A stretch of DNA of 64,000 nt from Rehaibacterium terrae (lineage in GTDB: Bacteria > Pseudomonadota > Gammaproteobacteria > Xanthomonadales > Xanthomonadaceae). The stretch lies in the NCBI RefSeq assembly GCF_014202935.1, contig NZ_JACHHX010000008.1, positions 1 through 64,000 on the forward strand. Reading direction: 5' to 3'. Position 1 is the first letter of the stretch; each line of letters begins with the position of its first letter. Under the pieces are notes generated by a model, which worked only from the letters and a program-made list of their open reading frames with translations, was not told the origin of the DNA and made no database searches. Positions 44,264-44,781 of this stretch are shown here, piece by piece. The translations under genes were made by a program, and so were the position numbers.

Positions 44264-44781
44264 TCAAGCGCGTTTGATCAGGCCGATCAGGAACAGCAGG
44301 ATTACCGCGCCGATGAAGGCATTGGCCACCGCGGCGATGAAACCGCCGCCGATGCTGATGCCGACCAGGCCGAGCGTGAAACTGCCGACGAATGCGCCGA
44401 TGACGCCGACCACGATGTTGCCGAGGATGCCGAAGCCGCGGCCCTTCATGGTAGGGCGTGCTGGCCTGTCTCCGATAGGCCGCGTTGTGCCTGTGCGGTC
44501 GCCAGACAAGGCGCGCGCCGCTGGCCGTAGCGATCTACGGCCAAGGCGCGCAACGCTGGATGGTGGCCGCACAGGCGCAACCCGAAGGGCCGTGGTTGTC
44601 GGCCTGCATCGCCGCGTCATCGCTCGGTTGCGTATCGACATACGCGCCCTCGCTCTTCCTTGCGCTGCAAGCCGACAACCGCGGCGCGGCCTATCGGAGA
44701 CAGGCCAGCACGCCCTGGTCCGGCGAGCCAGCCGGCGATGCCGCCGACCAGCAGGACGACGAGCAGGGATTGCAGTGTCAT
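44264..44781 (-). pseudogene. glsB: glsB/YeaQ-type transglycosylase-associated protein gene, split by an insertion
   Basis: The gene starts at 44781 behind GAGGAG and encodes MTLQSLLVVLLVGGIAGWLAG. It then enters a 264-bp inverted-repeat element (44453-44716), where the frame soon stops. Beyond it, 44449-44264 encodes MKGRGFGILGNIVVGVIGA and the rest of a GlsB membrane protein. Together the halves make about 84 residues, the family size (three hydrophobic segments). The distal 61 codons lack a ribosome site, so the gene is probably inactive. Confidence 0.85.
44453..44716. mobile_element. 264-bp MITE-like element with 32-bp perfect terminal inverted repeats
   Basis: Terminal inverted repeats at 44453-44484 and 44685-44716 match at 32 of 32 positions. 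Between them are two large hairpins. Arm A is 44485-44498/44567-44580 (13 of 14) with an inner 9-bp stem (44522-44530/44535-44543, loop CGAT). Arm B is 44594-44608/44666-44680 (14 of 15) with an inner 6-bp stem (44630-44635/44640-44645, loop CGAC). No coding capacity. GGT lies on both sides as a possible 3-bp target duplication. It interrupts glsB. Confidence 0.85.

Follow-up and report, generated by a model that had tools for sequence, protein, structure and literature searches.

The glsB gene (YeaQ/YmgE family) of the window, the whole 64,000-nucleotide stretch of Rehaibacterium terrae DNA analysed here, is interrupted after codon 21 by an element of 264 bp, and this locus raises the question of what the element is, how it came to split the gene and what keeps its arms complementary. 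The initial annotation had placed the element at 44453-44716 and had given it perfect 32-bp ends; both statements were confirmed on the sequence, where the terminal inverted repeats on the plus strand match at 32 of 32 positions, while the 59-bp arms of the element are complementary at 78%. The features of the locus are the following.

44453..44716, plus strand: element (family model positions 1-267), matched by covariance model R1 with 232.1 bits, E 9.8e-57
44453..44483, plus strand: terminal helix (31 bp), left arm
44484..44581, plus strand: arm 1, long hairpin with loop CGAT
44582..44588, plus strand: junction mini-hairpin CC-GAA-GG, both pairs invariant in 55 copies
44589..44685, plus strand: arm 2, long hairpin with loop CGAC
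44614..44663, plus strand: highest sequence conservation and basis of the search pattern (alignment columns 181-230, mean identity between copies 87%)
44686..44716, plus strand: terminal helix, right arm
44452..44453, plus strand: left border TA (remaining target TA)
44716..44717, plus strand: right border, TG in place of the TA that would complete a duplication
44719..44781, minus strand: glsB 5' part, codons 1-21
44267..44452, minus strand: glsB 3' part (PF04226, E 2.3e-11)

That an insertion splits glsB was borne out by comparison with other genomes. A glsB match was found in 128 of 149 family genomes, and in the nine relatives that we inspected the gene runs uninterrupted through the split point, without an insert; three of these (L128, L129 and L131) also have more than 1 kb of sequence beside glsB in common with the window, where genes for a phosphopantetheinyl transferase and for a PLD-domain protein are among the neighbours of the split gene. 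Thus, the element entered glsB in the lineage of the window genome. The opposite reading, that the element is a native intervening part of glsB, present at the same site with an unchanged frame in all relatives, could appeal to the single copy found in the window genome (two strands of one place among the best 150 of 5705 candidates), but it is refuted by the nine insert-free relatives and by the relatives of the element that occupy many other sites. The initial annotation had also noted that removing 263 bp restores the glsB frame, and this net length fits a pre-insertion TA minus one base, with T44452-A44453 on the left and only T44716 on the right. The copy had further been called recent or constrained; recency found no support, the closest relative at hand being 78% identical. 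As for the claim that the element holds no open reading frame, it stood in the sense that the element is gene-less and gives no sign of a gene, but not literally, since a minus-strand open frame of 125 codons (44264-44641) starts inside the element and extends into the remaining glsB.

A search for relatives of the element showed that it belongs to a dispersed family of about 267 bp (length 264-268 bp): DNA matches were found in 107 of 395 family genomes and in 32 of 54 genera, the window genome with its one copy included, a count based on the best two candidates per genome and in which the weakest matches are short. Over the genome collection, a degenerate 48-nt pattern was found in 63 stretches, all of them from Lysobacterales genera (Lysobacter, Luteimonas, Dyella, Rhodanobacter, Xanthomonas, Pseudoxanthomonas and Chiayiivirga) apart from a few MAG records titled Lysobacterales or merely Proteobacteria, and of 13 genomes of the genus Xanthomonas, 12 yielded 7-30 matches each to model R1, counted over both strands. 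The family is apparently new to description: against Rfam 15 the window stretch reached at best 19.9 bits for a gathering score of 59 and 10 family loci gave no match, and our literature search returned no paper that we recognised as describing it. The element had no match among phage sequences, the 48-nt pattern had none in viral contigs and the window element had none in the plasmid collection, in which two Xanthomonas copies match one record, a 508-kb Xanthomonas sacchari replicon. Some members depart from the common form. Copies shorter than 250 bp make up 54 of 159, many of them near 180 bp, and possibly represent a deletion subfamily; at L068:5314-5608 a second inverted repeat, perfect over 14 bp, frames the copy and lengthens its arms to 46 bp, which is not general in the family; and genes lying between two elements occur at L049, L052 and L085, their products looking by eye like an acyl-CoA-binding protein, DNA polymerase I and peptide deformylase.

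The borders of the copies were used to define the target. They were readable in 158 of 159 copies (L050 was excluded for its short flank), and TA was found at both borders in 55 copies, at one border in 48 and at neither in 55, TA making up 1.2% of flank dinucleotides. The sequence reads C-TA..TA-G in 34 of the 55 copies with TA at both borders and otherwise in 21, so that only 2 bp can be duplicated in these 21, which rules out a 4-bp CTAG duplication as a general rule. With locus numbers sorted by hand into groups, here as in the group counts of G-U and A-C cells and of tip matches below, TA stands on both sides in 46 of 90 Xanthomonas copies, 9 of 36 Lysobacter/Luteimonas/other copies and 0 of 32 Dyella/Rhodanobacter copies; the last have TA on one side in 7 of 32, yet possess almost perfect arms. 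In the window copy, TA is complete at the left border and the right border has only T. Two other candidates were rejected: the GGT on both sides of the window copy, considered in the initial annotation as a target duplication, has little parallel in the family, where exact adjacent 3-bp repeats occur in just 1.3% of 158 copies, and insertion into pre-existing hairpins as a rule is not seen either, flank stems of at least 7 occurring in 6.3% versus 4.5% in the control.

Empty sites were then read directly, the sites of five sister copies being empty in other species. All of the other species compared at L158 (4 of 4) lack the element and read CTAG across the join; at L164 it is empty in six species, the join being CTAG in three, TTAG in two and another sequence in one (TA in 5 of 6); at L165 it is empty in five species, with TA at the join in 4 of 5 and joins that differ by 3-5 bases; and at L103 and L113 it is empty in five species each, with TA at the join in 0 of 5 in both cases. 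Of the five empty sites that could be read in other Xanthomonas species, three therefore show insertion at TA, mostly within CTAG; L160 gave no clean empty-site read among the relatives compared. Some related sites have a more complex appearance. Two loci orthologous to the L102 site (L297 and L298) hold 36 nt resembling joined element ends, perhaps internal deletion products. At the L110 site, relatives (L217-L221) carry what by eye is old decayed sequence or short stretches, G084 shows by eye an apparent deletion scar and the G237 copy is fresh, which suggests a turnover of elements at one spot.

Since the element has no transposase of its own, a partner with the same ends was looked for, and a candidate full-length insertion sequence was found in one multi-copy Xanthomonas genome. 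PF13340 was detected in 4 of 12 genomes searched (G270, G201, G299 and G077), the window genome and several copy-bearing genomes being among those that lack it. G201, a Xanthomonas, carries six distinct 831-bp insertion sequences (L307, L309, L311, L313, L314 and L316; L303 is a repeat view of the L311 copy and is not counted), which are identical to the first copy at 828-831 of 831 bases and which all sit between C-TA and TA-G. Their ends read GGGCGTGTCATCAATT and, from the other side, GGGATTGTCATCAATT, and their transposase lies in two frames (PF13340 and DDE_Tnp_1) that both score above the cut-off for NF033580, 'IS5 family transposase'. Over 16 bases, Xanthomonas arms match the first end at 75% on average, with at least 13 of 16 in 95 of 180 arms and 16 of 16 in one arm, of L110; the identity of this 16-base tip is 54% in the Lysobacter/Luteimonas/other group and 50% in Dyella/Rhodanobacter, while shuffled arms reach 25-26% and never at least 13 of 16. 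The likeness is confined to the tips: bases 17-23 of the arms are at chance level (26% in Xanthomonas) and by BLAST the six insertion sequences have no match to an element. The window copy has the 7 leading bases in common with the insertion sequence end and 9 of 16 in all. G201 also carries element copies with such ends. Elements of G237 are 96-97% identical to the L113 copy of G299, and G237 has no PF13340 match, so partners may come and go. At a further PF13340 locus (L315:928, in G270), CTA-GGGCGTGTTATGAACTT lies nearby and possibly marks another insertion sequence with similar tips.

Considering the dispersed relatives, the insert-free glsB genes, the empty sites of sister copies and the insertion sequence with the same tips and a transposase in one genome, the early classification of the element as MITE-like and non-autonomous holds, and a MITE that inserts at TA/CTAG and that is moved, at least in Xanthomonas, by an IS5-family enzyme of the IS427 type is well supported by these sequence comparisons. 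In the IS427 group of Paracoccus, as described in PMC3281130, members are about 830-865 bp long, nearly all have 2-bp repeats and some have two overlapping frames. Another DDE enzyme with a TA/CTAG target, such as an IS630 (Tc1/mariner) element, is improbable as the mover: by the title of a paper cited in PMC2170065, IS630 prefers the TA in CTAG, and among 39 products of its relative ISY100, 3 had a complete TA at one border and just A at the opposite one, but the tips of our elements are common to an IS5-family element. Those common tips, which belong to a DDE element, likewise speak against a single-strand mechanism (HUH/Y1, REP-transposase-like) in which the folded strand would insert between CT and AG and no target would be duplicated. 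For this reading, to which we give very little credence, one can cite the CTAG-filled sites, also readable as CT[AG..CT]AG, the Dyella copies without duplication and the Y1 genes in 284 of 390 family genomes; PF01797, however, has no match in the window genome or in copy-bearing G037. Separately, G213 matches the IS200-type transposase family PF01797 at 11 places; the scores are nearly equal and every match contains a single in-frame TAG.

The fold of the element sets it apart from a simple pair of ends. With RNA energy parameters, the window element folds at -208.2 kcal/mol; 200 shuffled sequences average -125.4 (sd 4.9), and none of the 200 folds as well (z -16.9). Both of the large hairpins that had been drawn from the sequence are present in the computed fold, their apical loops reading CGAU and CGAC, while the three-way junction proposed with them gives way in the family consensus to a four-way junction: a 31-bp terminal helix, long arm 1, an extra short CC-nnn-GG mini-hairpin with an invariant stem, and long arm 2. 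In an alignment of 55 full-length copies, chosen among 76 found by a length of 255-300 and an arm score of at least 20, compensatory double changes occur in 90 of 105 base pairs, and 96.3% of the 5725 cells formed by these copies and pairs are paired, versus 73.2% after shuffling and 32-42% after sliding. In this arm-score-chosen set, arm identity is 96% within a copy and 51% between copies; among 104 copies of 250-275 bp that were not chosen by arm score, the values are 88% and 55%, and in 73 of 104 the left arm finds its best match in the right arm of the same copy. Left arms are 55% identical between copies, compared with 87% for columns 181-230.

MITE ends are usually conserved in sequence, since it is there that the transposase recognises the element. 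In the 31-bp terminal helix of this family, three or four pair types occur at most positions while pairing is retained; the ends of these elements are held by pairing rather than by sequence, except for the outer bases. The unusual feature of the family is a helix inside common tips that is free in sequence but held in pairing. Selection on RNA pairing is expected to leave more G-U than A-C cells, A-C arising equally easily. The terminal helix has 29 G-U and 29 A-C cells, hence no G-U preference, and arm 2 has 49 A-C and 21 G-U cells, whereas arm 1 has 277 G-U and 24 A-C cells, partly at fixed U-G positions. The counts in the terminal helix and arm 2 speak for an upkeep of the ends at the DNA level, and arm 1 may have an RNA role.

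Copies at the same site in different genomes (43 of 159, in 19 clusters) then allowed us to follow the arms after insertion, with folds by RNAfold; beyond the pairs given here, those with deletions are mixed. In L101/L122, L114/L156/L163, L039/L096 and L119/L172, we counted 4-23 one-sided changes and no double change, and L168/L175 and L180/L183 have one double change each. L023/L025, L047/L061/L080 and L100/L117 have 4-13 double changes in place, so compensation is not confined to transposition. In L065/L095 and L104/L157, with 35 and 23 double changes, the elements are far less alike than their flanks, which indicates a replacement of the element or two separate entries. In 30 pair comparisons taken together, replaced elements included, the double changes comprise 77 transversions and 73 transitions. 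Arm symmetry is somewhat lower in shared than in unshared copies (0.873 versus 0.924, P 0.005), and across 104 copies it showed no correlation with how close the nearest other copy is (rho -0.005).

Many copies lie directly behind genes. On 151 of 312 flank sides a gene, called by codon composition, points at the element; 64 of these 151 genes stop exactly at the border, their TAG overlapping the first bases of the element, and a border TAG is in frame with the gene in 68 of 92 cases (P 2e-15 against one third). Abutment on a stop codon concerns 60 of 154 copies, in all groups; an annotated example is a cytochrome c gene of X. sacchari, which runs up to the element and terminates there. The CTAG tetramer is scarce, with 121 unique sites across the 445 kb of Xanthomonas loci, and it often falls on an in-frame stop codon (at 42 of these 121 sites and at 45 of 237 in other loci), which is why many copies abut gene ends; target choice thus explains much of this placement. 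At ribH-nusB in Dyella/Rhodanobacter (L061:4099-4795, L047, L080 and L060), nusB begins inside the element in 4 of 4 loci, its start codon and first few codons being part of the right terminal arm; the L061 genes match PF01029 and PF00885, and these elements show compensatory changes between species.

Two readings of the paired drift remain live rivals. That the element is primarily a functional structured RNA (a 3'-end, terminator, processing or leader element), spread by mobility and kept for its RNA, is favoured by the double changes in 90 of 105 pairs, the conserved 50-column stretch, the G-U excess in arm 1, the position at gene ends and the nusB start codon inside elements with compensatory changes between species. 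We nevertheless find this unlikely: the terminal helix (29 versus 29) and arm 2 (21 versus 49) lack a G-U preference, close orthologous pairs gained 4-23 one-sided changes without a double one, stop abutment (60 of 154) is little more frequent than stops are among the CTAG sites of Xanthomonas (42 of 121; 45 of 237 elsewhere), and Rfam gave no match. The same balance of G-U and A-C in the terminal helix would follow if arm symmetry came from DNA template switching between arms (quasi-palindrome correction), without selection on the fold, a mechanism published for hairpins in PMC8794818, and transversions as frequent as 77 to 73 make a G-U bridge unnecessary. However, several close pairs with one-sided changes only, and two with one double change each, mean that such correction would be slow, and it leaves the conserved loops and junction unexplained, so that in this pure form it too seems rather doubtful.

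Altogether, the element is probably a non-autonomous, MITE-like member of a Lysobacterales family that is moved in trans by IS5-family (IS427-type) transposases, as judged from ends, borders and folds. The transposase would read the outer bases and insert at TA; the glsB target would have read approximately GTAG before insertion, and one base of the right TA would be missing. Inside the tips, the fold, first of all that of the folded DNA strand, may have to be intact for spread or, alternatively, may be restored as the element spreads or replicates, and the arm sequence would be free to change provided that both arms change. Copies would mostly decay after insertion, and with the CTAG preference they would tend to sit directly behind genes, where a few may be kept by the host. 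Sequence inside the tips that drifts freely and yet stays paired needs either selection that acts on the strand in its folded state or arms that are repaired against each other. Our preference is that the folded strand takes part in spreading or is maintained while the element replicates. Against this partner and fold reading count the presence of PF13340 in just 4 of 12 genomes and its absence from the window genome and G237, the Dyella/Rhodanobacter copies, of which none of 32 has TA at both borders, and the empty sites without TA at L103 and L113, the 9 of 16 tip matches of the window copy and the mean tip identities of 54% and 50% in non-Xanthomonas arms, the RNA-like sign of the arm 1 G-U excess (277 versus 24), and the independence of symmetry from nearest-copy closeness together with double changes in place in orthologous pairs. 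A bolder proposal, which we put forward only tentatively, is that of a pairing-defined element: its outermost bases would be read as sequence, the remainder of the roughly 31-bp helix and the two arms would have to form a four-way junction that is recognised or rebuilt during movement and is free to drift if complementary, and it would drop into CTAG stop codons and occasionally be captured as a gene leader.

With a 31-bp helix that varies freely and yet stays paired, and with a candidate partner that shares only the tips, a role of the folded strand and a correction between arms become testable against each other. The family also shows how a preference for CTAG, which is a rare tetramer, brings elements to stop codons and, at one site, how an element is captured as the leader and start codon of nusB.

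Among known systems, the IS427 group of the IS5 family resembles the candidate partner: the G201 insertion sequence has the group traits given in PMC3281130 (about 830 bp, two overlapping frames, a 2-bp TA and a CTAG target) and its tip GGGCGTGTCATCAATT is common to many Xanthomonas element copies, whereas the element lacks a transposase and its arms are at chance beyond the outer 16 bases (26% in Xanthomonas). The 2-bp TA, CTAG and tips are found in many Xanthomonas copies, in part in the window copy and not in Dyella/Rhodanobacter. MITEPsy1 of Pseudomonas syringae, as reported in PMC3189936, is also gene-less, IS5-like and inserted at CTAG or YTAA, but it is 100 nt long with 18-nt ends and a 4-nt duplication, a length of duplication that 21 of the 55 elements with TA at both borders exclude here. 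Correia/NEMIS, ERIC and RUP elements, in the account of PMC2229807, are likewise short, gene-less and dispersed, fold along their length and have a terminal TA; ours differs by its 264-268 bp and four arms, which pair within a copy and differ between copies. REP/BIME sequences with RAYT are intergenic palindromes too, in Xanthomonas as well, but PMC2817692 and PMC3733652 describe units of about 20-40 bp with GTAG-type heads, which the size and ends of the window element do not fit. Finally, the CIR repeats of Caulobacter resemble the element in having two inverted-repeat arms joined by a linker, and in the description of PMC2229807 they consist of arms and linker only, whereas the fold of the present element is closed by its terminal 31-bp helix.
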